Shown: positions 30,674 to 64,000 of the stretch, in pieces
How the letters are laid out: each line of letters begins with the position of its first letter
How positions within the stretch are numbered: the first letter of the stretch is position 1
DNA from: Physcomitrium patens
Lineage: Eukaryota; Streptophyta; Bryopsida; Funariales; Funariaceae
DNA: 64,000 nucleotides
Reading direction: 5' to 3'
Assembly (NCBI RefSeq): GCF_000002425.4
Contig: NC_037274.1
Span: 406,937 to 470,936 of the forward strand
Position numbers and translations under genes: made by a program
The notes under the pieces: generated by a model
Told to the model about the DNA's origin: nothing
The model's input: only the letters and a program-made list of their open reading frames with translations
Database searches by the model: none

Positions 30674-30714
30674 TTACTCCTCCTTCTAGAAACAAGTTCT
30701 ATGAGGAGCGGTGA

Positions 30715-33910: not shown

Positions 33911-33912
33911 TT

Positions 33913-33924: not shown

Positions 33925-33954
33925 CTAACATATTATTTCTGTCTTATTCTAGAA

Positions 33955-34112: not shown

Positions 34113-34145
34113 ATTATTTAACTTTTGAATTCATTTGAGTTGTCT

Positions 34146-35186
34146 ATGGAAGGAAAAATCATGGATGCTACACTTGGTGGAAGTAAAAATAGATTTGCAA
34201 CTATTGCAAATCTTCATGAGCTTATCAACACTCTTAGGACCAAAATTTCACGCATCACCAACACCAACCATGGAAGCACTATTCCTACTACTATGGAAGA
34301 ATTTCATAGTCTATGCCTAGAAGTTGTGCAGTTGAAAGAAACAAGTCGACTAGCCTCACAACCAAATTCTAGGAGTTTTGCTTCTACAAGCTCGAAGGAG
34401 GCAAAGATTAGTATGCTTGAAAAGTTTGACGAAACAAGATCAAGATTTCGAGGGTTTTTATAACAAGTTAAACTCTACTTAAGATTGCATCCTTTCCAAT
34501 ACCCTAATGGATTTACTCAAGTTGGATTCATAGGTGAACTTCTATCTGGAAGTACTCTCTCTTGGTTTGCACCTTTGATGGAAAAAGATTCATGACTACT
34601 CTATGATTTGAACTCATTTTTGGAAGTATTTATGACTACATTTGGAGAAAGTGATCAAGAAAGGGTAGCAAAGACCAAGCTTGTATCACTATGACAAGGA
34701 TCACGTTCAGTCACCACATATGCCGCTAAATTCCAAAGTCTTGCTTGTGATGTGGACTTGAATGATAAAGCCCTTATCAATCAATTTCGCTATGGATTAA
34801 AGAATAATGTCAAAGATTTGTTATTGACAATGCCAAAAATAAATTCTTTAGAACAATTCATTGCTCAAGCTATTGCATGTGATAATCGTTTATTTGAAAG
34901 ACATCAAGAACAAAGATATGGCTGAAGAGGAAGAAGTCAAGTCATGGCAACACCTTCTAAGTTTTTGGAAACCTTTCCATCAAGGCCAGAGCCAATACAA
35001 ATTGATACGGTATGTTTTAAATCTCTCACAAAGCAGGAAAAGACTCGACAATGTCAAGAGGGCTTATGTCTATATTGCAGAGAAGCTAAACACACTGCTC
35101 AACATTATTCAATGAAGCAACGCAATCACAAAATGAAGAATATGATTGCAAAAGAAGACAATGTGTCGGAAAACGAGTTCCTTTAG
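34146..35186 (+). pseudogene. Element E gag
   Basis: ATG at 34146 (MEGKIMDATLGGSKNRF). Coiled N-terminus (LHELINTLRTKIS, EFHSLCLEVVQLKE), capsid (EKFDETRSRFRGFL, YPNGFTQVGFIGELLSG, LSWFAPLMEK, FLEVFMTTFGESDQE, YAAKFQSLACDVDLN, FRYGLKNNVKDLLLTM) and D-N-R-L-F-E-R, then knuckle CLYCREAKHTAQHY with the last Cys lost. Three stops (Gln or Trp codons), no net frameshift. It ends TAG at 35184-35186. The pattern resembles sushi/Tf1-group gag. Confidence 0.85.
35168..35174 (+). promoter_or_regulatory. Probable -1 frameshift site, element E
   Basis: Gag frame TCG GAA AAC GAG with heptamer G-GAA-AAC, ten bases before the gag TAG. The -1 frame is open through this region into the protease (LATIGTVRLES). 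Position equals the A-AAA-AAT of D. Confidence 0.5.
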
Positions 35187-35890
35187 CTACAATAGGAACC
35201 GTGCGGTTGGAATCATGTGCAACACCTAGTCAAGGTCTTATTCTCTCCTCAGATCCCTCACCTTGTTATACAATAGATGTGTGTTTAGGACCCAAAAATC
35301 ATAAAGTCTTTACATTATTAGATTCAGGAGCCTCAGCTTATTTCATAGACGAAGACTTTGTCAAAAAATAAAAAATATCATTGGTCAAGAAAATCAAACC
35401 CGTACATATAGAAGTCATAGATGGTCATTCGTTGTCTTCTGGTGATGTTACCCATGAGACTGTTCTTTTAGATGTAATAATTAAAGATCATAATAGTGTG
35501 GTAATATTTAATGTGATATGATCTCTTTTGAATTCAGTCATTTTAGGACTATCCTAATTAGAAAATACAAACCTCAGATAGATTGGATTTCTCGTAACCT
35601 TAACTTTTCTAGTAGTTTATTTCAAAATTCTATTAATCAAGAAGAAATACATAAGTCTAGTGCATCTAAGCCCTTACTAGTAGGGGCAAGAGCTTTCATG
35701 CATGCAGCCAAAGAGGGGTCATCTTTTGCTATATATGCCATATCTATTTCAGATAGTGAAAAGACGTCAAGTGGTATTTCTAGTAAATATCAAGAATTCC
35801 AAGATGTTTTTGAGAAGAAGAATGCAGATATTCTTCCAAAACATCGACCTTACGATTGTTCAATTGATCTTCAAGAAGGAGCTTAACTTC
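35187..35890 (+). pseudogene. Element E protease and linker
   Basis: [16 protein letters not shown] carries the intact DSG motif near 35330. VEVIDGHSLSSGDVTHE and VILGLS follow, a stop after VIFNVI, then DWISRNLNFSSS. The linker has PLLVGARAFMHAAKEGSSFA and [14 protein letters not shown]. Stops near 35371, 35520 and 35556 and a frame change make it non-functional. Confidence 0.83.
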
Positions 35891-36700
35891 CATTTGGACC
35901 AATCTACAGCTTATCACAAAACAAGTTGGCTACACTAAAGGAATATATTGACAAGAACTTGACTAAAAACTTCATACGCCATTCAAAATCTCCAATAGGA
36001 GCACCGATCTTATTTTTGAAGAAAAAAGATAGATCTCTACAGATGTGCGTAGACTATCAAGGCCTTAATAAGATCACCATCAAAAACACGTGTCCTTTAC
36101 CTTTGATTTCAGGACTTCTTGATCAACTCAATCAAGCAAAGATCTACACAAAAATAGATCTACGAGGAGCATATAACTTGGTCCGCATCAAAGAAAGAGC
36201 TGAATGGAAGACTGCTTTTCGAACTAGATATGGATATTTTGAATATAACGTCATATCTTTTGGACTCACAAATGCACCAACTGCTTTTCAACATCTTATG
36301 AATGATATTTTTCATGAGTTTTTAGATGATTTTACTGTTTGTTATTTAGATGACATTCTAATCTACTCTAAGAACACAGAAGAACATGAACTCTATGTTT
36401 GTTATGTGTTACAAAAACTAAGAGATGCAGGATTATATACCAAGTTGGAAAAGTGTGTATTCGACACTACTCAAGTTACCTTTTTAGGATACATCATTTC
36501 CAACGAAGGCCTTATGATGGATCCCAAAAATATTCAAATTATCATAGATTGAAAGATTCTAAGAATAATATTAGATGTGCAATGCTTTTTAGGCTTTGCA
36601 AATTACTATCAAATCTTCATCAAGAACTTTTCTCAAGTTACAACTCCACTTACGCGTTTGATTTGTAAAGACAAATTTGAGTGGAGTAAAGAAGGTGAAG
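35891..36700 (+). pseudogene. Element E reverse transcriptase
   Basis: [40 protein letters not shown] (catalytic Asp), [37 protein letters not shown] (catalytic YLDD intact), [14 protein letters not shown], then one stop at 36550 and VQCFLGFANYYQIFIKNFSQ. Uninterrupted for 208 codons (35926-36552), among the better preserved RTs here. Confidence 0.9.
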
Positions 36701-37260
36701 TAGCGTTTGATGATTTAAAGAAGGAATTTATTTTTACACCAATCTTGTATCACGTCAACTTCTCCAAGGTATTTTTTATGGAAACAGATACATCAAACTT
36801 TGCCTTGGGTGCCATTTTGTCACAAATAGGAGTAGATGACAAGCTCCATCTAGTAGCTTTCCATTCTAAGAAATTTTCAACAGTTGAGATTAATTATGAA
36901 ATCCATAATAAAGAGCTTCTTGTAATTATGGATTCATTTCAAGAATGGCATCATTATCTAGAAGGCACCTCAAGTCCAATTACCGTGTACTTAAATCATA
37001 AGAATCTCGAGTATTTCATGTCAACACGCATATTAAATCATTGTTAAGCTCGTTGGAGCATGTCTTTATCAAGATTCGAGTTCATCATCACTTATTGACT
37101 AAGAAAACAACAAGGTTTGTTTGATGCCTTATCTAGACATTCTTATCTTGCATCAAAAGAAGGAGATGTAGTTTTTGAGCAACAAACAATAGTTCTCTTC
37201 AAGCTGGAGCAATTCATCTTCAAATAATAAAATCAACATTGACTATTAATTTAACTTTTT
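36701..37260 (+). pseudogene. Element E RNase H
   Basis: METDTSNFALGAILSQIG (Asp), HSKKFSTVEINYEIHNKELL (Glu), YLNHKNLEYFMS (Asp position replaced by Asn), a stop at 37046, then SRFEFIIT and LFDALSRHSY. The hallmark EINYEIHNKEL...DSFQEW sequence is shared with fungal chromoviruses. Confidence 0.85.
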
Positions 37261-38663
37261 TCAAGCAAGTCTAGTTAAGTATGTCTTTAGACCCTCTTGT
37301 TCATAATATCAAGAATAATTCTTCTAAATCTCATGATCCCTCTAAATTTGAGTTCAAGAAAAATCTACTCTATTTCAAAGGATGCCTATATGTTTCAGAA
37401 GGAGAAGTACATTTACGTGTTCTTCAAGCTCGTCACGACTTTCTAACAGTAGGACATTTTGGATATAATAAGACTTTGGAGCTGATATCTAGGGGTTTTT
37501 GGTAGCCTCAAATGTGGAAGGTAGTCAAAGATTTTGTACAATCATGTGATGTTTGCTCAAGATCAAAAACTCCTCATCATCGACCTTTTAGACTTCTTCA
37601 GCCATTACCCATTCTAGAACAACCATGGTCTTTGGTTTCTATGGACTTCATCATAGATCTTTTAAGCTCAAGTTCTTATGACTCTATATTTGTGATAGTA
37701 GATCACTTCACGAAGATGGCACATTTTGTGCCATGTACAAAATCCATCACAGGTGAAGAAACAGCTAAGCTTTTTATTGATAATATCTATCGCTATCATG
37801 GATTATCAAAGGATATTATATCGGATAGGGAAACTCAATTTGTATCAAGATTTTGGAGAATCCTTTTTAAGATTTTACAAGTGGATATAAAACTATCTTC
37901 GACTTTTCATCTTCAAATTGACGGACAGACAAAGCAGGGAAATCAAGTCTTGGAGCAATACTTAAGATGTACCATCAACTATCAACAAGATGATTGGACA
38001 ACTCTTCTGCCATTGGCAGAGTTTTCTTATAATAATACGGTGCATTCTTCTATGCAATAAATACCTTTTTTTACCAATTATAGTTATCATCCACGACTTG
38101 ACACGTTTGATTTTTCAAAAGTTGATAATCCTGCGACAGAAGATATGGCAAATCGGTTATTAGAATTACATGCAATAATGAAGGTGCAATGAAAAGAAGC
38201 TCAAGAATGACAAAAGATAAATGCGGATGTTTATCGAAAGGAACAACCACCATTCTACATGAGCGATAAGGTATGATTACTTTGTCGCAACATTAAGACC
38301 ACTCATCCTTGTGACAAATTGGACTATCGAAGGCTTGGACCATTTTCTATTTCTGCACAAATCAATTTAGTTGCATATCATTTACATCTATCGAAGACAA
38401 TGAAAATTCATCCAATATTCCAAGTGTCTCTTCTTGAACCATATAAGACAGTGGACATACCAAAAAGAAGACAAGCTCCACCTCCTCTTATAGAAGTGGA
38501 CAATAATAAAGAGTTTGAAGTGGAAGAAGTCTTAGATTCAAGGCGGCGCCAAAATAAATTGAAATATCTTATCCATTGGCGTGGATATGATATTAGTGAA
38601 TGCACATGAGAGTCGGTAAAGAATCTTGTAAATGCAGTAAAGGCGGTGGAGGCTTTTCATTGA
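37261..38663 (+). pseudogene. Element E integrase with chromodomain
   Basis: Zinc domain LQARHDFLTVGHFGYNKTLE, a stop, then VQSCDVCSRSKTPHHRP. Core: VSMDFIIDLLSSSS (Asp), IISDRETQF (Asp), [16 protein letters not shown] (expected Glu lost, relatives have T-E). GPF segment YRRLGPFSISAQINLVAYHL, then FQVSLLEPYKTV. Chromodomain 38515-38660: FEVEEVLDSRRRQNKLKYLI, HWRGYDISECT, one stop at the Trp, NLVNAVKAVEAFH, ending TGA 38661-38663. The chromodomain would target integration to marked chromatin. Confidence 0.88.
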
Positions 38664-38781
38664 CGACATCCATCAAAATGAAGATAAAAATATTTTTTAT
38701 AAAAGAAACAAGATCTAGACAAGATAACATTCTACTTTCAATCTTTATTTGTAGCTTCTTTGTAGTTGTGATGTTAAGAAG

Positions 38782-39204
38782 ATGGAGAACCAACAACCAC
38801 TGAATTCGACTCAAGAGCCTTCATTTGTTGATCTATAGGATGAGACATTATGATTGTCACAACCTTCAAGACGACGCAATCGAGATGAAGATCTTCAAAA
38901 ATGACATGTTCTTCCTCGAATAGATGGCGAGATACAACGCATTTGGTATCACGACCTTAGAAGGGACTCCCAATATTTGGTGATTTTTCTAGAGGTAGAA
39001 ACAGCTCCTAATGGTATTCCAAATATTTTATTCAAAGGAAGTTATGAAGGCCTCAACAATGAGCAAATAACTGGGTGGTCTTCCCGCCCTGGTATGGGAC
39101 ACTACTGATGGTTGAGAGGCCCTATTAATCATCTTTGAAGAAAACAAAGATCAGAGTATGTGGCAAATACAATTTGTCGCATCATAGATTTCTTGAACAT
39201 ATGA
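38782..39204 (+). pseudogene. ORF3 copy of element E
   Basis: 141 codons from ATG 38782 (MENQQPLNSTQEPS) to TGA 39202-39204 with five to six internal stops. Key segments: LSQPSRRRNRDEDLQ, DGEIQRIWYHDLRRDS, NILFKGSYEGLNNEQIT, SSRPGMGHY-stop-WLRGPINHL. It lies between chromodomain and polypurine tract and shares length with G and H and sequence with F. No known family recognised; the W-S-x(5)-G-x-GHYRWL-x-GP-x-NHL core is the diagnostic part. Confidence 0.7.
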
Positions 39205-39230
39205 TGACCGCTCCTCGTAGAACTCATCCT

Positions 39231-39244
39231 AGAAGGGGGGATAA
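39231..39244 (+). other. Element E polypurine tract
   Basis: AGAAGGGGGGATAA directly abuts the 3' LTR. The matching tract in G is AGAAGGGGGGGTAA. Confidence 0.85.
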
Positions 39245-39797
39245 TGTCACGGACATACTCATGTAAGCTAGTAATTACATATATAAATAAATAGAAGTAA
39301 ATAAAAGTAGATAAAAGTAAGTCAATTCTATTGTATTTGATATGGAAGCTTCCTAGAAGCTTTATAGATGCTGCTTTGACTTCATAGGTGTCTTTAATTG
39401 ACTTTTTGGATTAGAAATGTGGTCAACAAGTTGGCCATGTGCCACACATGTTGTTAGCTTGAAGACCAAGTTAACTATGTAGTCTACACGTGAAAAAAAC
39501 TTGCTTTGTAAGTCAAGGCAAGTGTCCTACAAAGTCATCACATATTGGAGGTCCTATAGAATGTCGCCACATAGCCCCTAGTTAGATAGTATATATAGAG
39601 ACAAGAGTGAAGCCTTCTTTATTCTTCTCAACTCCTTTCTTATTTCCAGTCTAGTTTCAAGAGTGGTCATGTTTTTTAATCTTTGGCAATAGCCATTCTA
39701 GTTCAATATATTATCACCTTTGAGTGATTTTTAAGTATTTTCGAGTGATACAAGAGTGTATTGAGATTATCTTTCTTTGGAGTTTATGTTCTTGATA
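39245..39797 (+). repeat. Element E 3' LTR
   Basis: 553 bp, TGTCACGGACATA to TTCTTGATA. GAAGCTTC palindrome near 39349 in U3, TATATATA from 39590, and a decayed self-primer TATTCTTCTCAA at 39620-39631. The LTR end is fixed by comparison with 33910. Confidence 0.9.
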
Positions 39798-46150: not shown

Positions 46151-47555
46151 ATCCAAATAAAAACCAATCTCCTAGCTTATCTTCTTTTCTATGGACCTAA
46201 CCAATAAATTTCAAACCATCTCGATACTCATTGCAAATTCAATATAATTGCAAGAAGAACTTAGAAATGAAAACTCATTTCAACAAAGTATAGAAAAAAA
46301 TTATGCCTCACATGCAGACACAGATCCAACCATGCTTCATCTCTCTACCACAATCCAAAGATATCAAAGAATAACTTGCATAGTTGATGGTAGAATACAT
46401 CCTAACACAAATTATACATAATATTGAAGACTTAGAGGAAGACCAATCCTCACAAAATAAGCCAAATCAAAGCCTTAGGCACATGTCAACACAAACAAAC
46501 AACATATTATAGATAGCCAAAGACAAAGCAACATTTGCTGAGGTTCCAGATCCCCAGAACTAAGTAATGAGCTGCCAAACATAAATCAAGATAATACTTG
46601 ATAAGAATTTGGATACTCAAATACCATAAGATAGGAACTCGAGCAATACCAGCCAAAAACTTAGATACCCAACAGAATAAGAAGCTTGGATAATATCCTT
46701 TAGAAACCCAAATACCTGAATTTAATAGAATAGGAATAAAGATGATATTGAGTCAGCTACGGAACATGACATATAGGCTTAAAATTAAGAGCTTTACACT
46801 TGGCATACTCTGCATGCCAAGAGAACTTAACTTACTTTAAATTTTTAGTAAATTTTATAACAAGTCATTTTGATACATTTCAATTTAAATGGAAGAGTTC
46901 TTGCTATGCATATGAGAGTTATGAAGATTGATATCTGAAAATTCCAAGATTTCTTATATTGCATTCATTGATTATTTAATGATAGTTGTCTATAATTATT
47001 AATATAGCCAAGTTGATCTAATGTATTAGTTTTAAGTATTGCTCTAAAAGAGCGTAGATTTAAATTCTATTGTTGCATCTTTCTTCTCTTTAATTCTCTT
47101 TGTCCTAATTCCACTTTTTTTCTTCATGCCTCCTTCATTGCCTTGTAGAATTGAAATGCAATAATCTCACTACTCAATTGACTAGCTCTGCCATTGTAGA
47201 TTGTCAAATCACAGTTGTTGCTTAGATGCAATTTCAACTATCAATTGGATTTTTAAGAACAAAGGGAAGAAACATAGGACAACTATAGAAGCAAGTAAAT
47301 TAGAGGATAAGTAATTTATAGCACATTATTTTATTATCCAAAATTTTTAGTTCTCTAAAGTTTTTTATCTAACTAAGATTCAAACTTAATATATTTGGAT
47401 TCTTCATTACACTTGATTGGAACTTTAATCTAATCTTGTTCTATCACATATGTTAAATTAATAGGCTTATAGTACTAATCTTTAAATATTGGTAGATAAG
47501 TAGATATATCATGTTTAGCTTTAATATCTTGAGATATATGTATAAGTTGTAAAAG
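46151..47555. other. AT-rich, no recognisable gene
   Basis: May hold the LINE 3' end. A weak tRNA-like stretch near 46999-47080 was rejected. Nothing else seen. Confidence 0.4.
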
Positions 47556-50240
47556 TAATAAGGACATGAATCATAAAGAATCATAGGATCAATAATTTTT
47601 TGTATTACTTGAAAAGAATAGATATTCATTCAAAAATAATATAATATTAGAACTAGAATGATTTTATTCAAAGAAAAGAAATTTAGGTACTCTTAAAATA
47701 AGATTAAAAGTAAAAAAGACATTTAAAAGAGTGAAGAAGGACTTATTGTGGCCTCCATATATACTATCTAACTAAAATCTATGTGGTGATGTTTTATAAA
47801 AACTCCAATATATATCTAATTTATAGGACATGTATCTAATTTGAAAGACAAGTTTCTTACATATATACCATATGGCTAACTTATATCACATACACAAACA
47901 TGTGTAACATGTGCAAACTTATTGATCAATTTTTTAACATAACAATCACCTATAAATATGCAAAAAGTTAAATTTGTATTTGTGAAGCTTTTTTGAAGCT
48001 ATTAAAGAGCTTTTCTATAAAATATTATTAAATTTATTTATTTCTATTTAATTTCTTTAATTTAAATAAATATATATATTTATATTATTAACACTTTTTT
48101 TTCTAAGAATAAAATTGACAAAGATTGATTATCATTCATTAAAAAAATTAAAGATAAAATAAATAATATTTTTGACATATTTTATTCTTAATTTTCTATG
48201 AAGATAATTAATAGATCTATTTAGCTATTGATAGTATTCAATATTAAAGCAAGAAGACCTCTTTGTTATTTAATCATTGTATTTAGCCTTTATAAATTCT
48301 TTCAATTAAAATATTTGAAACACCATCAATGGTTGTTCTTACTTTTAATAATAAAAAGTATTTGGAGTTTTTTCTAAGGTTATGATATAAATTATATTAT
48401 ATTCCATCATCTACTTGAGAAAGAACATATTATTTTTACAAGTAATTATTTCTATTATATTGTCTTAAAGGCTATAATAATTCCAATTACTTGTTTGGTA
48501 ATTCAAAAAATAATAGCTCTTGAGTTAAATCTACTAATTTTTAATTCTCTATCTCATTAAATTTTTAATTACTTTAAAACTAAAAATAATAATATAAAAT
48601 AGAATACAATATCTATTAAATTTTGTTTCTATTATAACAAAGAATTGCTTGGTTTTTGTCATAGCCTTAATGGATGTCATTGATAAAAAGTATCAACCAT
48701 CTTTGCTACATTTGTAAGATTCTTGGTTGGCACCTATGTATATTTACTAATATTATATTCATACTAATATACAAAATATTCCAAGTTACATTCACATTGT
48801 CTTGAGTGAAATACTTCTTTGACCTTTAATTCTTAGTTATTATCTATTTATATAAGAAAAAGTGGCATTTGTCTTCTTTTTGATATATTTATTATCTTGT
48901 ATGATTTAAAGAGAGACACATGGAGTACAAGATAGATTTTCATAGATTTCAATGAGTGTAATTAATAAGCAACTAGATTGATTTCTTTACTAATAGATAA
49001 TAGTCCAAGTTTATGACAATCTAAGTTGTTATAAGAGAAAATAGTCTTAATATTACAAAAAAATAATTATACCTTATTATTGATATAGAATTGAAGTAGT
49101 TACTTGTGATAGGTATCTACATTGAGTTTTTGTTGTTCTTAATATTCTTTTAGTTTTGCCTTTATCATTATATAGAACTTTAACAAACAATCTGCCAAAT
49201 CTTCCACTATAAGGTTATCAACTTTTGAGAAGTCAAAAGTATCAAATTGTGGATAATAAACATAAGTAGCATAAAAAAGTATTTATTGAATAGAAGAATG
49301 TAGTGTGTTATTATAGATAAATTAAACCAATAAAAAAATAGTTATTCCATCATCTTAATTACAATTAATGGTATGTTTCAAATATTCTTCAAAACCTAAT
49401 TCATATATTTTGTTTGTCCATTTTTTTAAAGATGGAAAGCCAAAGATAGTTTTTATATTGACCTTCAATAAGTTAAAAAGAGTTTTTTAAAAATATGATA
49501 CAAATTGAATCTTTCTATTTAATATAATATTCTTTAATAATTCATGAGAGTAATAATCATAATCTAGGAAAAAATATAATTTTTTTTTTATCTATAATAG
49601 ATTTTGTATATGATACAAAATATGACAGTTTGATGAAATAATCTAATGTCACAAATATAAAATCATAAGAACTTTAAATTAAAATATTTATAAAAAATTC
49701 TATAGAAATAAATGACCATAGTTGTTTTGGTATAGATAGTGGTTGAAAAAACCCATTAGACCAATGACATGGAGTTTTTGATCTTGAACAAATATCACAT
49801 GATTCTACAAAGTTTTTAAATACTTTTCACATTTTAATCCATATTAAATCTTTTGATACTAACTACAAGGTCTTGTTGTATCCAAAATATCTTGTAACTC
49901 AAAAATTGTAATGAGCTTCAAAAACATGTAGTTGTATTTTATCTTTTAAAACATATAAACATCTTTTAAAATAGAAAAGAATATTCTTACATATAAACTT
50001 GGAAGTATCACAAGATTTAGTAGAAATATTTCTAACATCATAAACAAGAAGGTCTAAGAACATACTTGATTGAACTTTCTTAAGAAAAGTTGAATCAATA
50101 ATAAATATTGATCTTATTACTCAAAGATGAAATTATTATAGTTTCAAAGAAATATTTTCTTATTGATCAAAAGATATATTTTTATTTTTGTTTAATTTTT
50201 TAGTATATTTAACAAATACTTTAAAAAATGCAAGTTGATC
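47556..50240 (-). mobile_element. Strongly decayed D-family element I
   Basis: Minus-strand LTR (about 47556-48092) with TATATAT from 47763 and a decayed primer sequence 30 nt downstream (47733). Then come ORF3 remnant 48132-48552, chromodomain region 48640-48860, and integrase to about 50110 (recognisable by collinearity with G 61130-62050), ending within the RNase H end near 50240. Many indels. No protein-level integrity. Confidence 0.7.
48132..48552 (-). pseudogene. ORF3 remnant of element I
   Basis: About 421 bp aligned to ORF3 of G, start codon changed (ATG to ATA). It is the most decayed copy; only nucleotide collinearity supports it. Confidence 0.45.
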
Positions 50241-53200: not shown

Positions 53201-53381
53201 TAACACCTTAAAGATATTGCATAAATAATATCAAAACCAATGAAACTAAGCAATTATCAATATACCAAGCAAATAGTGTAACAATTGCATATGTTATTCA
53301 ATTAAATAGAAATAGATCAAAATAAATATTAGATAATAAATATATTCTTTAAGAAGCTTTAAAAAAGTTTCTTAGACATTG
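50241..53381. other. Very AT-rich stretch without gene
   Basis: No coding or RNA gene recognised on either strand. 50430-50890 is a degenerate array of AATCCTAA/AATCTTAA-like words. A T-run lies near 51380 and a 30-bp tandem repeat at 52011-52089. 52260-52400 is slightly less AT-rich (AGACGTGTACATATTC... CCTTGGTGAAGC) and may be an LTR scrap. Confidence 0.5.
52011..52089. repeat. 30-bp tandem repeat, 2.6 copies
   Basis: Unit AATTTTTAGAATATATTAAA plus AATATATTAG, perfectly repeated at 52011-52040 and 52041-52070, third copy partial. Confidence 0.95.
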
Positions 53382-53401
53382 TGTTAGGGACATAGTCCTT
53401 A

Positions 53402-53497
53402 GAACCTTCTAGAGACAAGTTTCTAGAACCTTCTAGAAGCAAGTCTCTGGAACCTTCTAAAAGCTTCTTAGTTGGTAGAAGTTGCTTGAGAAGCTTC
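53402..53497 (+). promoter_or_regulatory. Heat-shock-element-like array in element F LTR
   Basis: GAAccTTC at 53402-53409; TTCtaGAAccTTCtaGAA at 53421-53438, four alternating nGAAn units in perfect phase; GAAccTTC at 53450-53457; GAAgcTTC at 53490-53497. All lie 12-107 bp upstream of the TATA box. The canonical heat-shock factor site is three or more inverted nGAAn units, so the second motif is a full site. Confidence 0.75.
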
Positions 53498-53508
53498 CTA
53501 AATAGGAG

Positions 53509-53516
53509 TATATATT
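53509..53516 (+). promoter_or_regulatory. Element F TATA box
   Basis: TATATATT, 31 nt upstream of the self-primer sequence CAGTCTCGACAA (53540-53551). This places the predicted mRNA 5' end at or within a base or two of the primer. Confidence 0.75.
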
Positions 53517-53520
53517 GGAA

Positions 53521-53551
53521 TCGAGGCTGAAGAGTTCTTCAGTCTCGACAA
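53521..53551 (+). promoter_or_regulatory. Core-promoter palindrome and self-primer, element F
   Basis: TCGAGGCTGAAGA and TCTTCAGTCTCGA flank GT with one mismatch. The right arm contains CAGTCTCGACAA, complementary to the primer site at 53681-53692. D has an analogous but different palindrome in the same place. Confidence 0.8.
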
Positions 53552-53680
53552 CACATTTCTTGGAGCTCTAACTCACCTCTCTGGTGTTGTTCTTGTATTC
53601 ATCTGATTAATCTATTTCTTGCCAATTCTTCTTCAATTTCTTGTTAGATCTGGAGCCTGTATTCTTATGTCCATGACAGT

Positions 53681-53692
53681 TTGTCGAGACTG
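53681..53692 (+). promoter_or_regulatory. Element F self-complementary primer site
   Basis: TTGTCGAGACTG starts 2 nt after the 5' LTR and is a perfect 12-nt complement of 53540-53551. No tRNA-type TGG site occurs here. Confidence 0.88.
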
Positions 53693-53731
53693 TACTCACC
53701 TCAGATATCATAGCTAGTTTCTTCCTCGTTA

Positions 53732-53910
53732 GAGTGTGGATTACCCCTTTCCTTGGAAGTGTACTAGCATTTTAGAGGTTGCGGATTACCCTCCTCTAAA
53801 CTGATACTTCTTTTGTTACAATATTGGACTCTTATTCTTCTTGGAGAGAGTGGATTACCCCTTTTCTTGAAACTCTTAAGGCATTTTAGAGGTTGTGGAG
53901 TACCCTCTTT
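53732..53910 (+). promoter_or_regulatory. Element F leader motifs
   Basis: GTGGATTACCCC (53736), GCGGATTACCCT (53781), GTGGATTACCCC (53850), GTGGAGTACCCT (53894), arranged as two ~113-bp repeats. The same four-motif plan is present in D and E despite otherwise diverged leaders. Confidence 0.65.
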
Positions 53911-53958
53911 TAAACCAATATTATCTTTTTGTAGAGTCATTTCTGTCCTTCTCTTAGA

Positions 53959-54983
53959 ATGGCCGGAGGCCAAGACATTAGTATGACGAAAAGTTCAGAG
54001 TCCAAGTTGGATGCTATCATGAATGCCCTTGCTACGTTATCGCAAAGAATTACTGAGATTGAAGGAGTCGTGGCAAGGCTTCATAATGATGGAGCATCTG
54101 GGATGGTACAATCTAGGTTGCACCTACCTCAAACTTCTGCACTTGGAAAAGCAACTTTGCCTCAGGTTTGACAAACACCATTGGTTCTACAACATAAAGA
54201 GCCTCAAGTTAGCCTTCCAAACAAGTTCGATGGTACGCATTCCAAGTTTCAAGGATTCGTCAACCAAATCAGATTGATAACAGATTTATAGCCCGAACGC
54301 TATCCAACGGAGGAGTCACATGTTGGGCTTGTTGGAACCTTACTTACATGACAAGTTCTATCATGGTTTGCTCCTTTGTTTGAGAAACGATCGTCCATAC
54401 TAAAGAACTTTGAAACCTTTTTGGAAGCATTTGCAGAAGCATTTGGTAAACACGACAAGGTTCGATGGGCTACAACAAAGATCCGATCACTACGACAAGG
54501 GATGCGCTCTATATCAGTCTATGCATCAGATTTCAGGCAATTAGCATGCAACATCAATTGGAATGAAGAAGCATTGATGAGTCAATTCTATTGGGGTTTA
54601 AGAGACGATGTGAAGGATTTGCTGTTAACTCTTTCTGATCCGTAAACGCTCAACGAAGCTATTAGCCAAGCTGTGAAGTGCGATAACCGCCTATTCCAAC
54701 GCCGCCAAGATCAACGTTCAAGACAACATATGGTTTGCCACGTCCCAACTATGTTAGCAAGTAGCGTGAATTCACATTCAGAGGTAGAAGACATGCAAAT
54801 TGATGCGGTACGTGTCAAATCCCTTACTCTAGAAGAAAAAAAGCGGCATATGGAGGAAGGTCTATGCTTGTATTGCAGTGAAGAAGGCCATAAAGTTGGA
54901 AACTACCCAAGAAGCAAAATCGACGTATTATCAGGACTAGGGGCGCGTTTGTTCAAGAAAACGAGGATGCCCAGCCACAATAG
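53959..54983 (+). pseudogene. Element F gag
   Basis: ATG at 53959 (MAGGQDISMTKSSESKLDAI). Coiled N-terminus (LATLSQRITEIEGVVARLHN), capsid (NKFDGTHSKFQGFVNQIRL, LSWFAPLFEKRSS, FLEAFAEAFGKHDKVR, SVYASDFRQLACNINWNEEA, YWGLRDDVKDLLLTL), CDNRLFQRRQDQR, knuckle CLYCSEEGHKVGNY with the last Cys changed to Tyr. Stops at about 54168, 54288, 54348 and 54643. A small indel after the knuckle shifts the frame before the expected gag end (CAA TAG, 54978-54983). The capsid also recalls the sushi-derived gag type. Confidence 0.87.
54956..54962 (+). promoter_or_regulatory. Candidate frameshift heptamer, element F
   Basis: A-GAA-AAC in the inferred ancestral gag frame, seven codons before CAA TAG. Protease (ATIETVRLNSE) is in the -1 frame, as in D and E. 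Confidence 0.45.
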
Positions 54984-56194
54984 AAACCGTGCGATTGAAT
55001 AGTGAAATATCGCAACAACAACCAGGTTCCTTTCTTTCCGCTTAACTTGCCTTTTGCTTTATAATTCCTTTGTTTATTGGCCCTCAAAAACTGAGGACCT
55101 TAGCATTATTAGATTCAGGAGCATCTGCTTGTTTTTTAGACAAAGAATTTGCAAAGCGTCATAAGATCCCTTTAGTACAAAAATCTAAACCTGTTCATGT
55201 TGAGGTCATAGATAGGCAACCTTTATTGTCTGGTAGTATCAACCATGAATCAAAACCTATAGAAGTGACGTTTAAGGGCCATAGTAGTCATATTATTTTT
55301 AATATTATTAGAACTCCATTAAATCCTGTTATTCTTGGTCTTTCTTTGTTGAAAAAGCATAACCCATCCATAGATTGGAGGTTGCGAAAGATGACCTTTC
55401 CCACAAAACCACTCAAGAGTAAGCCTAGTAGAAAACCCCGAATAAAAAAATCCTTATTCATTGGAGCAAGAGCGTTTGTAAGATCGTCCAAGGAAGGTAC
55501 ACTGTTTGTCATTTATGTGACTCTAACTACCAGAGAGAAGATCTCGACAGGAAGTATATCAGAGCAATATAAGGATTTTAAAGATGTGTTTCAAAAGAAG
55601 AATGCCAATATGCTACCGGAACACCAACCATATGATTGCGCCATAGACTTGAAGGAAGGAGCACAACCACCTTTTGGCCCAATCTACAATCTATCGCAGA
55701 TGGAGTTGGCGGAATTGCGAAAGTACATCAATGAGAATCTAGCCAAGAACTTCATTCGTCATTCAAAATCGTCAGCTGGAGCACCCATCTTATTTGTGAA
55801 GAAGAAAGATGGCTCGTTGCGTATGTGCGTGGACTATCGAGGCCTCAACAAGGTAACAAAGAAGAATCGTTATCCGTTACCCTTGATTTCTAGTCTCTTA
55901 GAACAACTTGGACGTGCAAGGATCTTTAGAAAAATTGATCTAAGGGAAGCTTACAACCTCGTACGAATCAAGGAAGGAGATGAGTGGAAGACAGCGTTCC
56001 GTACAAGGTATGGCCATTTTGAGTATAATGTCATGTCTTTTGGTCTTACCAATGCTCTAGCAGTCTTTCAACATATGATGAATGATATTTTCCGAGAGCA
56101 CCTTGACGATTTTGTTGTCATTTACTTGGATGATATTCTGTTATTTTCCAAAAACGAGAAAGAGTATGAAAAGCACATTCGTTTGGTCTTATAG
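54974..56194 (+). pseudogene. Element F protease and reverse transcriptase
   Basis: A 374-codon open stretch (55070-56194). Protease: [20 protein letters not shown] (intact DSG), [36 protein letters not shown]. Linker [72 protein letters not shown] (Asp), [36 protein letters not shown] (YLDD intact). All visible catalytic residues survive in this segment; the first stop is at 56192. Between gag and 55070 there is one stop (near 55043). Confidence 0.92.
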
Positions 56195-57030
56195 AAACTA
56201 AGCAAGTGAGGACTATATGCCAAGTTGGAGAAGTGTTTATTTCACCAAATAGAGATGGAATTTTTGGAGTTCGTTGTGACTACAGATGGCTTAAAGATGG
56301 ACCCCAAGAAGGTGGAAGCAATCGTATCTTGAGAGGTTCCGAAGACGATTAGAGACATATAATACTTTTTTAGTTTTACCAACTTCTATCGGATCTTCAT
56401 CAAGAATTACTCTCAAGTTGTTGCTCCTTTCATTCGGTTGACATACAAGGATAAGCTAGAATGGGGACCTCTAGCGGAGAAGGCGTTTCAAGCCCTGAAG
56501 ATCACATTTACTACGGCTCCAATCTTGGTATATCCAGACTTTACAAAGGCCTTTTATTTAGAAATTGATGCTTCAGATTTTACTTTGAAAGCTGTACTTT
56601 CACAAATGGGAGAAGACAAGAAGCTCCATCCAGTTGCATTCTATTCTCGAAAGCTCTCTGCTGTTGAAATCAATTATGAGATCCACCATAAAGAACTTCT
56701 TGCTATAGTGGATTCTTTCCAAGAATGGCGTCACTTTCTTGAAGGAGCTGCACACCCAGTAACCATATACACAGATCACAAGAATTTGGAGTATTTCATA
56801 TCGGCTCGAGTTTTAAATCGACGTCAAGCTCGGTAGAATATGTCGCTATCTAGGTTCGATTTTGTTATCACTTATCGACCTGAAAAGCAGCAAGGACTAT
56901 TTGATGCCTTATTGAGGAGATCGTATCTTCTACCAAAGGCTGGAAAAGCAGCGTTTGATCAACAACGTTTGATCAACAATAATTTTGATTTTGTGCTACT
57001 ATTGTGCCAATTGATGCTGACTTCCTGAAT
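56195..57030 (+). pseudogene. Element F RT thumb and RNase H
   Basis: Thumb segment LYAKLEKCLFHQIEMEFLEF with stops at 56192, 56207, 56328 and 56359, then FYRIFIKNYSQVVAPFIRLT. RNase H: YLEIDASDFTLKAVLSQMGE (Asp), YSRKLSAVEINYEIHHKELL (Glu), YTDHKNLEYFISARVLNRRQ (Asp), stop at 56834, LFDALLRRSY (Asp). Confidence 0.9.
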
Positions 57031-58448
57031 CAGGTACGTACCGTGACCATTGAAGATTCAGTAGCCATTGATATCAAGCAACGTGCCAATGACCACAAGT
57101 TCAAGGTGGAGGGAGATCTTTTATACTTTGAGGAGCGGTTGTATATTCCAAAAGGACCAGCACGACTCTGAGTTCTTCAATCTTGCCATGATTTTCTAGC
57201 TGCGGGACATTTTGGATTCAACAAGACCTTAGAGCTTATTTCTCGAGATTTTTGGTGGCCCCAAATGTAGAAGGATGTGAAAGATTTTATCCTCTCCTGC
57301 GACATATGTTGAAGATCCAAGAATCCTTGACATCGCCCTTATAGACTCCTAGAACCATTGCCGATTCTACGTCGACCATGGTCTTCAGTTTCCATGGACT
57401 TCATCACAGACCTGCCATCATCGAACTCATTTGACAGCATCTTTGTCGTGGTAAATCAGCTTACAAAGATGGTGCACTTTGTCCCTTGCAAAAAGATGTC
57501 GTCTAGTGAAGTCACAGCAAGGCTCTTTCTCGATAATGTATATCGATATTATGGACTACCAGATGATATCCTATCAAATCGAGGAATCCAGTTTGTATCA
57601 AAGTTTTAGAGATCTCTCTTTGAGATACTGAAGGTAGATATCAAGTTTACTTCGGCTTTTCATCCTCAAACTGACGGCCAAACGGAACAGGTGAACTAAG
57701 TCTTGGAACAATACTTACGATGTAGCATCAACTATCAGTAAGATAATTGGACCGCATATCTGTCGCTAGCCAAGTTTGCATATAACAACACCCTCCATAC
57801 GTCGACTCAATACACACCATTCTTTTCCAACTATGGATATCATCCGAAGCTTGATTTATTGAGTCTGTCAGCAAATAACAATCCAGCAGTTGAAGGATTT
57901 GTAAAACAACTATCATAGCTTCAAAATACGTTGAAACTTCAATTACAATCCACTCAAGAATCCTACAAGGCGTCTGCAGATAGATTTTGGAATCAAGCAC
58001 CTACTTTCAAAATTGGAGATAAAGCATGGCTTCTTCGACGGAATATCAAGACCAAGAGACCATGTGATAAGTTGACTATCGAAGATTGGGACTATTTATC
58101 ATCCAGAAGCAAATCAATCCAGTGGCATACCGTTTGGAATTACTGGCTTTTATGAAGGTACATCCAGTCTTTCATGTTTCTCTGTTGGAGCCTTATCGAG
58201 AGTCGTCTTTTTCTGAAAGAGTGCAATGTCCACCACCTAGTATTGAAATCGAGAACCATGAAGAATACAAGGTTGAAAAGGTACTAGATTCACGATGAAG
58301 GTGGGACAAGTTAGAGTATCTTGTTCATTGGTGTGACTACGACATTAATGAGCGAATGTAGGAGCCAGTTGAAAATCTCGCCAATGTGCCGCAAAAGGTA
58401 CAGGAGTTTCATCAACAACATCCTCATAAATCTAAGCTGGTTCGATGA
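57031..58448 (+). pseudogene. Element F integrase with chromodomain
   Basis: Zinc domain: CHDFLAAGHFGFNKTLELIS, FWWPQM-stop, FILSCDIC. Core: PWSSVSMDFITDLPSSNSFD (Asp), ILSNRGIQFVSKF (second Asp replaced by Asn), TDGQTEQVN-stop-VLEQYLR (Glu kept). GPF-like segment, [16 protein letters not shown]. Chromodomain about 58255-58420: [11 protein letters not shown]-stop, WDKLEYLVHWCDYDINE, EPVENLAN; ends at TGA 58446-58448. About nine stops. The chromodomain shows the same VLDSR...LEYLVHW core as E. Confidence 0.88.
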
Positions 58449-58582
58449 TAGCTTCCTTTTGAAGCTTGCTCATCCAAGAATATAAGAAAGGGGGAGAGCA
58501 CCACCAAAATTCGTAGTTGATGTAGTTATTTTCTCCAAGATAAAGTAGAATTTTTTCAGTATCCATAGTTTGGTCTACTGAT

Positions 58583-58906
58583 ATGGATAGCCAAAAGATA
58601 GATACTATGCTAGTCAGATTATCTCAATCAACTAGCTCACAAAGGCGACCCCAAGATGAAGAACTGCCTACACCATGACGACAACGGAGGATACCGAGTA
58701 ACTGATCATTGGTGATTGTATTTGAGTTCGAGTCTGCTTATGATGGTCAGCCAGAAGGGGTGTTTGCAGGACAATTTCACAATGAAGACACGGAAGTTCA
58801 TGCTTGGTCAAAAGTCGAAGGCGTAGGCCACTACCGTTGGCTTGAAGGGCCAATGAACCACTTGCCTCGTGAACAACAGTTAGAGTTCATAGTAGACGTT
58901 ATATGA
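58583..58906 (+). pseudogene. ORF3 copy of element F
   Basis: 108 codons from ATG 58583 (MDSQKIDTMLVRLSQSTSSQ) to TGA 58904-58906, with two stops near 58676 and 58703. The downstream 65 codons are open: LVIVFEFESAYDGQPEGVFA, then EVHAWSKVEGVGHYRWLEGP, MNHLPREQQLEFIVDVI. Alignment with E and G is clear in the LSQ-S start, the LVI-x(2)-E centre and the GHYRWL-x-GP-x-NHL core, despite strong DNA divergence. No known domain recognised. Confidence 0.72.
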
Positions 58907-58972
58907 CAGATCTTCATTTTCTTGCGTTGATATTGATTAACAACAACATTGCTTCTCAGAGACCTTGAAGCT

Positions 58973-58986
58973 AAAGGAAGGGGTGA
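58973..58986 (+). other. Element F polypurine tract
   Basis: AAAGGAAGGGGTGA immediately before the 3' LTR. Confidence 0.85.
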
Positions 58987-59307
58987 TGTTAGGGACATAG
59001 TCCTTAGAACCTTCTAGAGACAAGTTTTTAGAACCTTCTAGAGATAACTTTCTAGAACCTTCTAGAAGCAAGTCTCTGGAACCTTTTAAAAACTTCCAAG
59101 TTGGTAGAAGTTGCTTGAGAAGCTTCCTAAATAGGAGTATATATTGGAATCGAAGCTGAAGAGTTCTTCAGTCTCGACAACACATCTCTTGGAGCTCTAG
59201 CTCACCTCTCTGGTGTTGTTCTTGTATTCATCTGATTAATCTAATTCTTGCCAATTCTTCTTAAACTTGTTGTTAGATCTCGAGCATATATTTCTGTGTC
59301 TATGACA
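58987..59307 (+). repeat. Element F 3' LTR
   Basis: 321 bp; same TATA (59138) and self-primer (59169-59180) as the 5' LTR. It contains the phased TTCtaGAAccTTCtaGAA at 59050-59067 and one additional GAAccTTC unit compared with the 5' LTR. Followed by target copy CATTG. Confidence 0.95.
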
Positions 59308-59478
59308 CATTGATTATATATTTAGACTTTTATAGATATATCATATGGCTATTTATCCTTATCTTACATATTTTTTTGATCTTAGGAAGTTATATTAGAA
59401 GCAATCTATAGCTTGATATTTAGACCATGAGCCTTACAATTTATAGGAGGGTTCTATAAGATCTTTTTAGTAGCTTAT

Positions 59479-60019
59479 TGTCAAGGATAAGAACTCGATG
59501 AAAAAACAATCCAGAGAAGTGAGCCTTCATTCAAAGAAAGGTAACAAAATATAAATAAATAAGTATGTATATTGAAAGAAAAACTAGAATGGCTATTGCC
59601 AAAAGATAAGAAAACTAGACACCCTTGAAACTAGACTAAAAGCAAGAAAGGAATTGACAAAAATGAAGAAGGCTTCACTCTTATCTCTATATATACTATC
59701 TAACTAGAGGCTACGTGGAGACATTCTATAGGACCTCCAATATGTGTTGACTTTGTAGGACACATGCCTTGACTTATAAGACAAGTTTTTCTATGTGTGG
59801 GCCACATAGTTAGCTTGATCTTCAAGCTAACAACATGTGTGGCACATGGTCAACTTGTTGACCACGTTTCAAATCCAAAAAGTCAATTAAAGATACCTAT
59901 GAAGTCAAAGTAGCATCTATGAAGCTTCTAGAAAGCTTCCATATTAAATACTATAGAATTAACTTATTTTTAGCTATTTGTATATGTAATTACTAGCTTA
60001 CATGAGTATGTCCGTGACA
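59479..60019 (-). repeat. Element G 3' LTR
   Basis: 541 bp, minus strand TGTCACGGACATA to CCTTGACA. A perfect three-unit heat-shock-like site GAAgcTTCtaGAA lies at 59921-59933. TATATATA from 59695; primer sequence CATTTTTGTCAA at 59665-59654, two substitutions from the D version, 30 nt downstream of TATA. Confidence 0.9.
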
Positions 60020-60033
60020 TTACCCCCCCTTCT
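60020..60033 (-). other. Element G polypurine tract
   Basis: Minus strand AGAAGGGGGGGTAA directly before the LTR. Confidence 0.85.
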
Positions 60034-60060
60034 AGGGACGAGTTCTGCGAGGAACGGTCA

Positions 60061-60483
60061 TCATATGTTGAAAAAATCTATGATGCGACGAATTATATTC
60101 GCCACATACTCTGATCTTTATTTTCTTCGAAGATGATTGATAGGGCCTCTCAACCATCGGTAGTGCCCTATACCAGGGCGGGAAGACCACCTAGTTATTT
60201 GATCATTATTGAGGCCTTCATAACTTCTTTCGAGTAGAACATTTGGAACACCATCAAGAGTTGTTCCTATCTCTACCAAAATCACCAAACATCGGGAGTC
60301 CCTTCCCAAATCGTGATATCAAATACATTGTATCTTGCCATCTATTTGCGAAAGAACATGTCGTTCTTGAAGATCTTCATCTCGATTACATCATCTTGAA
60401 GGTTGTGACAATCGTAATGTCTCGTCCGATAGGACAGCAAGTGAAGGCTCTTGAGTCGAATCCACTGGTTGTTGATTCTCCAT
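60061..60483 (-). pseudogene. ORF3 copy of element G
   Basis: 141 codons from ATG 60483 (MENQQPVDSTQEPSLAVLSD) to TGA 60061-60063, with three stops. Clear segments: NRDEDLQERHVLSQIDGKIQ, YHDLGRDSRCLVILVEI, NVLLERSYEGLNNDQIT, RWSSRPGIGHYRWLRGPINH, RSEYVANIIR. Identical in length to E and H. The overlapping frame 60342-60659 is a shadow. Confidence 0.7.
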
Positions 60484-60601
60484 CTCCTGAACGTCACAAC
60501 TACAAAGAAGCTATGAACAAGAATTGAAAGTAGAATGTTATCTTGCCTAGATATTGTTTCTTTTATAAAGAAGGTTTTCATCTTAATTTTGATGGATTTC
60601 G

Positions 60602-61990
60602 TCAATGAAAAGCCTCCATCGCCTTTGCTGCATTTGCAAAATTCTTTATTGGCTCCCATGTGCGTTCACTAATACCATATCCACGCCAATGGACAAGATA
60701 TTCTAATTTATTTTGGCGCCGCCTCGAATCTAAGACTTTTTCTACTTCAAACTCTTCATTATTGTACACTTCTATAGGAGGAGGTCGAGCTTGTCGTCTT
60801 CTTCATATGTCCATTGTCTTATATAGTTCAAGAAGAGATACGTGGAATACTAGATGGATTTTCATTGACTCCTGTAGATGTAAACGATATACAACTGGAT
60901 TGATTTGTGCAAAAATAGAAAATGGTCCTAGCCTTCGATAGTCCAACTTGTCACAAGGACAAGTGGCCTTGATATTGCGATGAAGTAGCCATACCTTATC
61001 ACCCAAGAAGAATGGTAGTTGTTCCCTTCGATAGACATCCGCATTGATCTTTTGTTGTTCTTGAGCCTCTTATAACTGCGCCTTCATCGTTGCATGTAGC
61101 TCTTATAAATGAATTGCCAAATCTTTCACAACAGGATTATCAACTTTTGAAAAGTCAAAAGTATTTAGTCATAGATGGTAACCATAATTAGCAAAGAAAG
61201 GTATTTGTTTTGTAGAAGAATGTACTGTGTTATTGTAAGCAATTTCTGCCAATGGTAAAAGAGTTGTCCAATCATCTTGTTGGTAGTTAATGGTACATCT
61301 TAAATATTGCTCCAAAACTTGATTAACACGCTCCATTTGTCCATCACTTTAAGGATGGAATGCCGAAGATAGTTTTATATCTACTTTTAGAATCTTAAAA
61401 AGAGTGCATCAAAATCTTGATACAAATTGAGTTCCCCTATCTGATATAATATCCTTGGGTAATCCATGATAGCGATAGATATTGTCAAGAAAGAGCTTGG
61501 CTATTTCTTCACCTGTGATAGATTTTGTACATGGTACAAAATATGCCATCTTGGTAAAATGATCTACTATCACAAATATAGAATCATAAGAACCTAAGAT
61601 TGGAAGATCCGTGATGAAGTCCATAGAAATAAAAGACCACGGTTGTTTTGGAATGGGTAATGGGTGAAGAAGTCTAAGAGGTCGATGATAAGGAGTTTTT
61701 GATCTTGAGTAAACATCACATAATTGTACAAAATCTTTGATTGCCTTCCACATTTGAGGCCACCAAAAATCCCTAGATATCAGCTCCAAAGTCTTATTAT
61801 ATCCAAAATGTCCTGCTGCTGAGAAGTTATGACGAGCTTGAAGAACACGTAAACGTGTTTCTCCTTCTGGAACATATAGGCATCCTTTGAAATAGAGTAG
61901 ATTGTTCTTAAATTCAAATTTAGAGTGATCATGAGATTTAGAAGAATTATTCTTGATATCGTGAACAAGAGGGTCTAAAGACATACTTAA
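60602..61990 (-). pseudogene. Element G integrase with chromodomain
   Basis: Zinc domain LQARHNFSAAGHFGYNKTLE, FWWPQMWKAIKDFVQLCDVY. Core: ISMDFITDLPILGSYDS (Asp), IISDRGTQFVSRF (Asp), a stop, [16 protein letters not shown] (Glu kept). Then GDKVWLLHRNIKAT, YRRLGPFSIFAQINPVVYRL, HVSLLELYKT and a chromodomain ending at TGA 60602-60604 (EAFH-stop). The 191-codon segment 61409-61984 is open. Five or more stops elsewhere. Confidence 0.88.
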
Positions 61991-62083
61991 CTAGACTTGC
62001 TTGAGAAAAGTTAAATCAACAATCAATGTTGATTTTATTGCTCGAAGATGAAATTGCTCCGGCTTCAAGAGAACCGTTCTTTG

Positions 62084-63565
62084 TTACTCAAAAGCTACAT
62101 CTCCTACTTTTGGTGCAAGATAAGAACGTCTAGACAAGGCATCAGACAAACCTTGTTGTTTTTCTGGCTGATAAGTGATGATGAACTCGAATCTTGATAA
62201 AGACATACTCCAACGAGCTTGACGACGATTTAATACGTGTACTGACATAAAATATTCGAGGTTCTTGTGATCCATATACACGGTGATTGGACTGGAAGCG
62301 CCCTCTAGATAATGATGCCATTCTTGAAAAGAATCCATAATTGCAAGAAGTTCTTTGTCATGGATCTCATAATTGATTTTTGCTGCTGAGAATTTTCTTG
62401 AATGAAAGGCTACTGGATGAAGTTTGTCATTTGTTCCCATTTGTGATAAAACCACACCCAAAGCAAAGTCTGATGCATCTATTTCCATAAAGAATGCTTT
62501 GGAAAAATCAACACGATACAAGATTGGTATAGAAACAAACGCTGTCTTCAAAGATTCAAAAACAACTTCTGCTTCTTGATTCCATTGGAGTTTGTCTTTA
62601 CAAGTCAAACGTGTAAGTAGAGCTGCAACTCGAGAAAAGTCTTTGATGAAGATCCGATAGTAGTTGGCAAATCCCAAAAAACATTGGACATCTCTTACCG
62701 TTTTTAGAATCTTCCAATCTATAATAGTTTGAACTTTCTTAGGATCCATCATAAGTCCATCATTTGAAATGTTGTAACCTAAGAAATCGACTTGAGTAGT
62801 GTGGAATATATACTTTTCTATCTTGGCATAGAGTCCTGCATCTCTTAATTTTGTAACACACGACGAACATGAAGTTTATGTTCTTCTGGATTCTTAGAAT
62901 AGATTAAGATGTCGTCTAGATAACAAACTACAAAATTGTCCAAAAACTCTCGAAAAACATCATTCATTAGATGTTCAAAAGCTCCAAGTGTATTTGTAAG
63001 TCCAAAAGGCATGACGTTGTATTCAAAATATCCATACCTAGTTCAAAATGCAGTCTTTTATTCATCTCCTTCTTTGATGCATACTAGATTGTATGCTCCC
63101 CGAAGATCTATTTTTGTATAGATCTTAGTTTGATTCAGCTGATCAAGAAGTCCAGATATTAAAGGTAGTGATACTTGTTCTTGATGGTAATCTTGTTGAG
63201 TCCTCGATAATCAATACACATCCGCAATGATCCATCTTTTTCTTCACAAATAGAATTGGAGCTCCTATCGGAGATTTAGAATGGTGTATGAAATTCTTGG
63301 CTAGATTTTCTTCAATATACTCCTTGAGTTCAGTCAACTCATTTTGTGATAAACTATAGATTGGTCCGAATGGCGGTTGTGCTCCTTCTTGAAGGTCAAT
63401 TGAGCAATCATAGGAACGATGTTCCGAGAATGTATCCGTATTCTTCTTTTCGAATACATCTTGAAATTCTTGATATTGGCTTAGAATGCCACTTGAAGTC
63501 TTTTCACCAATAGGAACACGTGTGGCATAAATAATATATGGTGATTCTTTCATAGCGGCATGCAA
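62084..63565 (-). pseudogene. Element G reverse transcriptase and RNase H
   Basis: Linker [54 protein letters not shown] followed by a one-base shift, the YLDD motif near 62915, a frameshift near 62840, MMDPKKVQTIIDWKILKTVR, VQCFLGFANYYRIFIKDFSR. RNase H: MEIDASDFALGVVLSQMG (Asp), NYEIHDKELLAIMDSFQEW (Glu), YMDHKNLEYFMSVHVLNRRQ (Asp), LSDALSRRSY (Asp). Open for 222 codons at 62084-62752. Confidence 0.9.
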
Positions 63566-63622
63566 GAAAGCTTTTGCACCTATAAATATGAGTTTAATTG
63601 AAGTGGACTTATGACTCTCTAT

Positions 63623-64000
63623 TTAATTAACTACACTGTTAGTTATACTTTTAGAAAAAGTAAGAGTTCGGAAAATCCAATCTATTTGAGGGTTGTATTT
63701 TTCTAACCACGATAAACCTAAAATGACTGGATTAAAGGGAGATCTAATGATATTAAATACTACAAAACTATTATGACCATTAATTATTACTTCTATATGA
63801 AGGATTTTATGAGTAATATCTCCAGAAGACAATGGACGATCATCTATGACTTCTACATGAATAGGTTTAGTTTTCTTTACTAAAGATATACTATGTCTTT
63901 TAATAAATTCTTCATCTAAAAAATACGCTGAGGCTCTCGAATTTAACAAGGTAGAGACTTTGTAATGTTTAGGTCCTAAAATAATATTTAATGTAAAACA
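63623..64000 (-). pseudogene. Element G protease (partial at window edge)
   Basis: LLNSRASAYFLDEEFIK stands where D/E/F have LLDSGAS, so the catalytic Asp is Asn and Gly is Arg: inactive. Then VEVIDDRPLSSGDITHK and [19 protein letters not shown]. The frame continues out of the window. Confidence 0.85.

Follow-up and report, generated by a model that had tools for sequence, protein, structure and literature searches.

Probable self-priming in a decayed Tcn1-type chromovirus of the moss Physcomitrium patens, and a conserved hairpin facing its primer

How is reverse transcription begun in a plant LTR retrotransposon whose primer binding site (PBS) is complementary to the predicted 5′ end of its own RNA? 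This question is posed by element F, a retrotransposon in the window, by which we mean the whole 64,000-nt stretch of Physcomitrium patens DNA analyzed here (NC_037274.1, positions 406,937 to 470,936); coordinates below are those of the window. We regard element F as very probably a decayed copy of a Tcn1-type chromovirus whose reverse transcription was started from its own RNA, and the part that we consider worth following is a hairpin formed across the border of U3 and R.

Structure and lineage of element F

Element F is an LTR retrotransposon on the plus strand (53382-59307) with both LTRs present and a decayed interior. Self-comparison together with the LTR ends delimits a 5′ LTR of 297 nt (TGTTAGGG...ATGACA, 53382-53678) and a 3′ LTR of 321 nt (58987-59307), both on the plus strand, and a target-site duplication, CATTG, can be read directly on either side (53377-53381 and 59308-59312). 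Of the 297 sites that align between the two LTRs, 18 differ (K2P distance 0.064), and the 3′ LTR has one more unit than the 5′ LTR of a 24-nt U3 repeat (TAGAACCTTCTAGAAGCAAGTCTC), of which the 5′ LTR has 2.7 copies at 53400-53464. The open pieces of pol, all on the plus strand, encode a retroviral protease and reverse transcriptase (RT) (55046-56194; Pfam RVP_2 and RVT_1, RT tree), an RNase H domain (56363-56836; Pfam RT_RNaseH_2 / RT_RNaseH) and a weak, decayed integrase core (57331-57609; Pfam rve, E 2e-4, below its cut-off). A polypurine tract, AAAGGAAGGGGTGA, named by its position and read directly, adjoins the 3′ LTR on the same strand (58973-58986). Within the leader, a 76-nt motif occurs twice (53731-53806 and 53845-53920, 80% alike), and a part of it, GGTTGCGGATTACCCTCCTCTAA, is also found in the leader of element B, a related element described below.

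The LTR pair, target-site duplication, PBS, polypurine tract and gypsy-type RT and RNase H place element F in Ty3/gypsy, and its nearest solved RT is that of Ty3. No chromodomain profile matched at 58706-58903 of element F itself; a family copy, L023, has gag, integrase, SH3_Tf2-1 and chromodomain matches (PF00385, E 6.4e-15), and by the chromodomain of this copy the family is classed as a chromovirus. In a 14-row RT tree element F is placed beside a fern RT (86/93); its grouping with a fungal RT is weak (73/76), and five angiosperm chromoviruses stand apart at 100/100. Published Tcn1 and Tf1 sequences are not among the rows, and the Tcn1 lineage name therefore rests on the tree together with the PBS. 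Among ten named proteins compared, the closest is from the fern Ceratopteris richardii, 81% identical over 118 RT residues, which suggests the presence of Tcn1-type elements in ferns. A search for relatives in viral contigs gave eight stretches that matched a pattern, none of them confirmed.

The window also holds five other related gypsy elements or fragments (18904-23505, 28066-31328, 33704-39797, 47547-50179 and 59582-64000), in both orientations and at about 67-83% DNA identity. A different LTR element (8776-17466) has LTRs of ~1.33 kb (8780-10112 and 16129-17462) that are 99.5% alike and a 4-bp duplication, ACGG, and a solo-like LTR (2124-3457, region 2120-3461) is flanked by ACGT; for Phygy, Galadriel and Bryco, duplications of 4 bp are reported to be the most frequent (PMC6911290).

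Primer and binding site in two families

A sequence-only reading of this DNA had proposed that the start of the element F mRNA is a perfect complement of the primer site. The 12-mer CAGTCTCGACAA (53540-53551) is indeed the exact complement of 53681-53692, with both stretches located as claimed, and the PBS does begin 2 nt past the 5′ LTR, whose end at 53678 is fixed by the LTR pair and the target-site duplication. The spacing of 31 nt from the TATA box also holds: counted from the first T of TATATATT (53509-53516, plus strand, read directly), C53540 lies at 31 nt and A53541 at 32 nt. Allowing at most one mismatch, CAGTCTCGACAA is found in the window only at these two sites and in the 3′ LTR copy (59169-59180), where shuffles expect 0.12. 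When the LTR was dinucleotide-shuffled, an exact complement of at least 12 nt to the 25 nt past the LTR arose 7 times in 20,000 trials with element F and 11 times in 20,000 with element B, counts that do not require the match to lie at the predicted RNA start. A generic search for a TATA box plus a complement does not discriminate: a crude scan of 239 kb (window and loci) for a 10-mer that lies 27-37 nt past TATATA and has a complement further downstream gave 30 rows against 36 TATA sites with a mirror control, and 16 of the 30 rows came from the two families, the remainder being mostly AT-rich.

The length of the duplex can be judged from family copies. Nineteen elements of the F family were chosen only by RT similarity, and 17 were scored (L021 and L027 have no site pair; L006 and L007 are the same place). 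Over 11 nt, primer and PBS agree exactly in 11/17 and with one mismatch in 6/17; past the 11-nt PBS, 14 copies have A, two have G and one has T, and all 17 have C in front of the primer. Because the base past the PBS varies while the base at -1 is always C, the pairing appears to end at A53541. A 12-nt primer from C53540 was rejected, since its 12th base varies among copies of both families, and judged by these copies the 12th base pair in element F is incidental. The complement at the predicted RNA start thus stands, and the kept primer has 11 nt from A53541, not 12 from C53540. A53541, the predicted +1, is the base expected for a CA-type initiator, and a duplex that ends there is as expected if matching is limited to transcribed bases. 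The primer of Tf1 is also 11 nt long. We accordingly place the candidate self-primer AGTCTCGACAA, predicted RNA nt 1-11, at 53541-53551 (complement match, family copies) and the PBS TTGTCGAGACT at 53681-53691 (complement match, family copies, junction count), both on the plus strand.

A second family carries a different pair of sequences at the same places. We call the element F primer and PBS type II and those of element B type I. On the minus strand, element B has the self-primer ACTCTTGTCAA at its predicted RNA start (23330-23340) and the PBS TTGACAAGAGT at 23152-23162, and element D, on the plus strand, has a copy of the same primer in its 5′ LTR (33734-33744) and the same PBS (33913-33923). 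This pair differs from that of element F at three positions, each changed on both strands. Genome-wide, junctions of LTR end and PBS number 1,689 for type II and 4,488 for type I, against 0 in the control for both. In the first 30 of the 4,488 type-I junctions, all on contig 1 and picked by LTR end and PBS, the primer starts exactly 31 nt after TATATA in 30/30 loci; the corresponding distance in type II is 32 nt in 18/18 elements. Primer and PBS of the type-I sample agree exactly in 22 loci, with one mismatch in six and with two in two; the 12th PBS base is A (23/30), G (6/30) or C (1/30), and the base at -1 is C in 30/30. By this comparison the conserved thing is the primer-PBS pair, not its letters. 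Such agreement need not mean selection on each copy, because self-priming would copy the primer into the PBS in each cycle.

Within the F family the record of matched change is less clear. A variant PBS, TTGTCAAGACT, occurs at 162 places genome-wide, and in 40 of these the primer matches the variant exactly in four, carries the matching change and another in two, is canonical in 26 and is otherwise in eight; among 20 of the 1,689 places with the canonical PBS, none has the variant primer. Concerted change inside the family was set aside as proof, the contrast of 4/40 with 0/20 not being significant (Fisher p 0.29), and most F-family PBS variants look like decay after insertion. In a single concerted case, L022, both LTRs and the PBS have changed alike, and a subfamily of two copies, L066 and L079, has a matched change of primer and PBS together with an altered hairpin tip; these are too few to lean on. 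The contrast between families is stronger than any concerted change inside the F family.

From the layout, which can be read in the DNA itself, we infer the RNA start, the cleavage and the extension as follows. The TATA box at 53509 would set the RNA start at A53541, and nt 1-11 of the RNA (AGTCTCGACAA) would fold back to pair with the PBS (53681-53691). If the cleavage site corresponds to that of Tf1, RNase H of the element's RT would then cut past nt 11 (53551/53552), and the new 3′ end, A53551, would be extended from 53680 into U5. The primer-PBS helix is present in the predicted minimum-energy fold of the element F leader, and the stability of the entire leader does not exceed that of its shuffles (z 0.21). 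When elements were folded singly, at least 9 of the 11 primer-PBS pairs were present in the minimum-energy fold of 14/21, and none in 7/21.

A hairpin across the U3-R border

The last 20 bases of U3 are made up of a 12-nt arm, a 4-nt loop and CTTC, and the arm pairs with CTTC plus primer bases 1-8. The resulting hairpin reads TCGAGGCTGAAG-AGTT-CTTCAGTCTCGA in element F and GCAAGAGTGAAG-CCTT-CTTCACTCTTGT in element B, with 12 pairs kept in both families. In element F the U3 arm TCGAGGCTGAAG lies at 53521-53532 (fold z-score and conservation) and its partner, CTTC of U3 with self-primer nt 1-8, at 53537-53548 (folding and conservation), both on the plus strand. The fold z-scores are -6.67 in element F, -5.7 in element B and -3.5 in the decayed 3′ LTR copy of element F.

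Conservation was assessed in 108 segments (43 type I, 59 type II and six near the variant), which include both LTRs of some elements as well as overlapping loci; since they were selected for their closeness to one of three primer types, the test bears on the U3 arm alone. Hairpin cells pair in 95.7% of cases in type I, 97.0% in type II and 93.1% in those near the variant, as against 35-46% once one of the arms is slid. In three of the pairs both bases differ between the families, and a further pair is distinguished by a fixed G.T wobble; in the tip stem of L066 and L079 a G-C pair replaces A-T. The U3 arm does not duplicate the PBS: at a position where the PBS has A, G is found in 59/59 type-II segments. 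A conserved hairpin opposite the primer is possibly a new feature; in the part of the literature surveyed, which lies outside the original Tf1 papers, we found no mention of a U3-R hairpin facing the primer.

Element D bears on the same border in another way, as its 5′ LTR has no U3: the match to its 3′ LTR (33704-33923 / 39591-39797) begins at 33704, about the base of the hairpin. This could reflect insertion of an incomplete cDNA or a later deletion.

What might the hairpin do? The primer sequence would occur twice in the genomic RNA, at the very 5′ end and again where R of the 3′ LTR begins (59170-59180, plus strand, complement match, read directly). An RNA starting at +1 would have no U3 arm at its 5′ end; its single copy of the arm would lie close to the 3′ end, next to the second primer copy, where folding places the arm copy expected in the RNA (59150-59161, plus strand). 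A tentative proposal, to which we give rather less than even credence, is that the arm acts as a decoy lock, holding only the 3′ primer copy in a hairpin so that only the 5′ copy takes the PBS. The hairpin would cover R nt 1-8/9, roughly the part that strong-stop DNA cannot contain after the primer is cut off, and the remainder of R would be left open for strand transfer.

We modeled this competition by joining a leader piece to a 3′ U3-R piece through 30 A's, and the argument is thermodynamic only because this linker is far shorter than the real RNA. For element F the PBS is predicted to pair with the 5′ copy at a mean probability of 0.97, and when the arm is barred from pairing, with the 3′ copy at 0.95. 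The model was extended to 48 elements, namely element F, 17 type-II loci with their own 3′ LTR and 30 type-I loci with the 5′ LTR standing in; here 46 elements favor the 5′ copy when the arm is free to pair, and 24 do when it is barred. With the arm barred, mean pairing of the 5′ copy drops from 0.44 to 0.30 in type II and from 0.62 to 0.36 in type I; for the 3′ copy, which starts at 0.00 in both types, it reaches 0.25 and 0.37, respectively, and stays at 0.00 if 12 control bases are barred instead. The modeled effect of the arm is weaker across the 48 elements than in element F alone.

Other readings and known systems

Might the PBS instead bind a host tRNA or an internal half-tRNA, with the match to the LTR incidental? 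Plant LTR elements are as a rule primed by tRNA, and some copia lineages are described as using a half-tRNA (PMC6317226). In both families, however, the PBS is complementary to the predicted RNA 5′ end and has no tRNA-type TGG start: TGG, the complement of CCA, is absent from the 15 nt past the LTR in 30/30 type-I loci and from the LTR end through the PBS in 18/18 type-II junctions, so that a tRNA 3′ end cannot pair there. Moreover, three primer positions distinguish the families, and the PBS differs at the three positions that pair with them; matches of such length are also rare in shuffled LTRs, all of which makes tRNA or half-tRNA priming very improbable. No tRNA genes were found in the window.

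We assign as small a probability to the idea that the inverted repeats serve transcription or DNA structure, as a promoter palindrome of which the PBS match is a by-product. Both families do have a palindrome of 12-13 bp between the TATA box and the first bases of R, but the matched PBS is not part of the LTR, the match is accurate to the single base and breaks off at the predicted start, and pair 6 is a fixed G.T wobble in 59/59 type-II segments, tolerable in RNA and imperfect as a DNA palindrome; self-priming relatives are also known. Slightly less probable still is an RNA start upstream of the hairpin, which would make the matched 11 nt internal and the hairpin the 5′ end of the RNA. The hairpin would then gain a role in the 5′ leader, and the 5′ LTR of element D begins near the hairpin base (33704); against this, the hairpin base is only ~12 nt past the TATA box, too close for a usual start, and the PBS match stops 31-32 nt past TATA, preceded by C in 47/47 scored copies. 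Collectively, the 11-nt complement at the predicted start, its presence in two families, the missing TGG, the chromodomain and the placement of the RT support the self-priming, Tf1-like reading well, and element F most likely works as a self-primer with 11 nt from A53541.

The first demonstration of self-priming came from Tf1; since then it has been implicated in elements of hosts ranging from fungi to vertebrates (PMC4600332). The sequence-only reading had known of no described plant example, and predictions are in fact in print: according to Neumann 2019, 12% of the plant elements surveyed are predicted to prime themselves, among them the majority of moss and club-moss Tcn1 elements and the TAR copia lineage, including Houba and Osr-1 (PMC6317226). 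Self-priming as a kind is therefore already predicted for the lineage of element F (PMC6317226). For a Selaginella Tcn1 element, Novikova 2010 reports evidence for neither tRNA priming nor self-priming (PMC2864245). Like the F family, the Tcn1 lineage of REXdb, which includes PpatensLTR2, has a chromodomain integrase, no tRNA PBS and predicted self-priming, and its RT, like that of element F, stands apart from other plant chromoviruses (PMC6317226); we found no decisive difference from it in a comparison with the published moss elements by description, not by letters.

PpatensLTR2 is also the moss element in an analysis of Tf1/sushi elements, whose RNAs are described as forming a three-duplex 'pretzel' (PMC10085805). 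In element F this structure is only partly visible: duplexes of the PBS flanks with the LTR are predicted, including one of the PBS 3′ flank with U5. As predicted for element F, the RNA of Tf1, Tj1 and Tosmo1-3 carries at its 5′ end a primer that can pair with a PBS just past the LTR. These elements share with the F family a chromodomain and an 11-nt primer, the length known from Tf1, and differ from element F in host and sequence. A tRNA-primed plant chromovirus differs from both moss families in its TGG PBS start, seen here in 0/30 type-I and 0/18 type-II cases. The TAR elements Houba and Osr-1 belong to Ty1/copia, not gypsy, and TAR copia elements are not known to have a chromodomain. What they have in common with element F is self-priming predicted in plants (PMC6317226).

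The thousands of copies in two families provide a large natural test set for self-priming in a plant genome, and the moss is a tractable host in which priming could be measured in a plant. The problem that the 3′ LTR copy of the primer poses for self-priming was not found raised in the part of the literature surveyed; if the U3 arm does act as a decoy lock, the hairpin would answer how the RNA avoids pairing of the PBS with the identical primer copy in the 3′ LTR.
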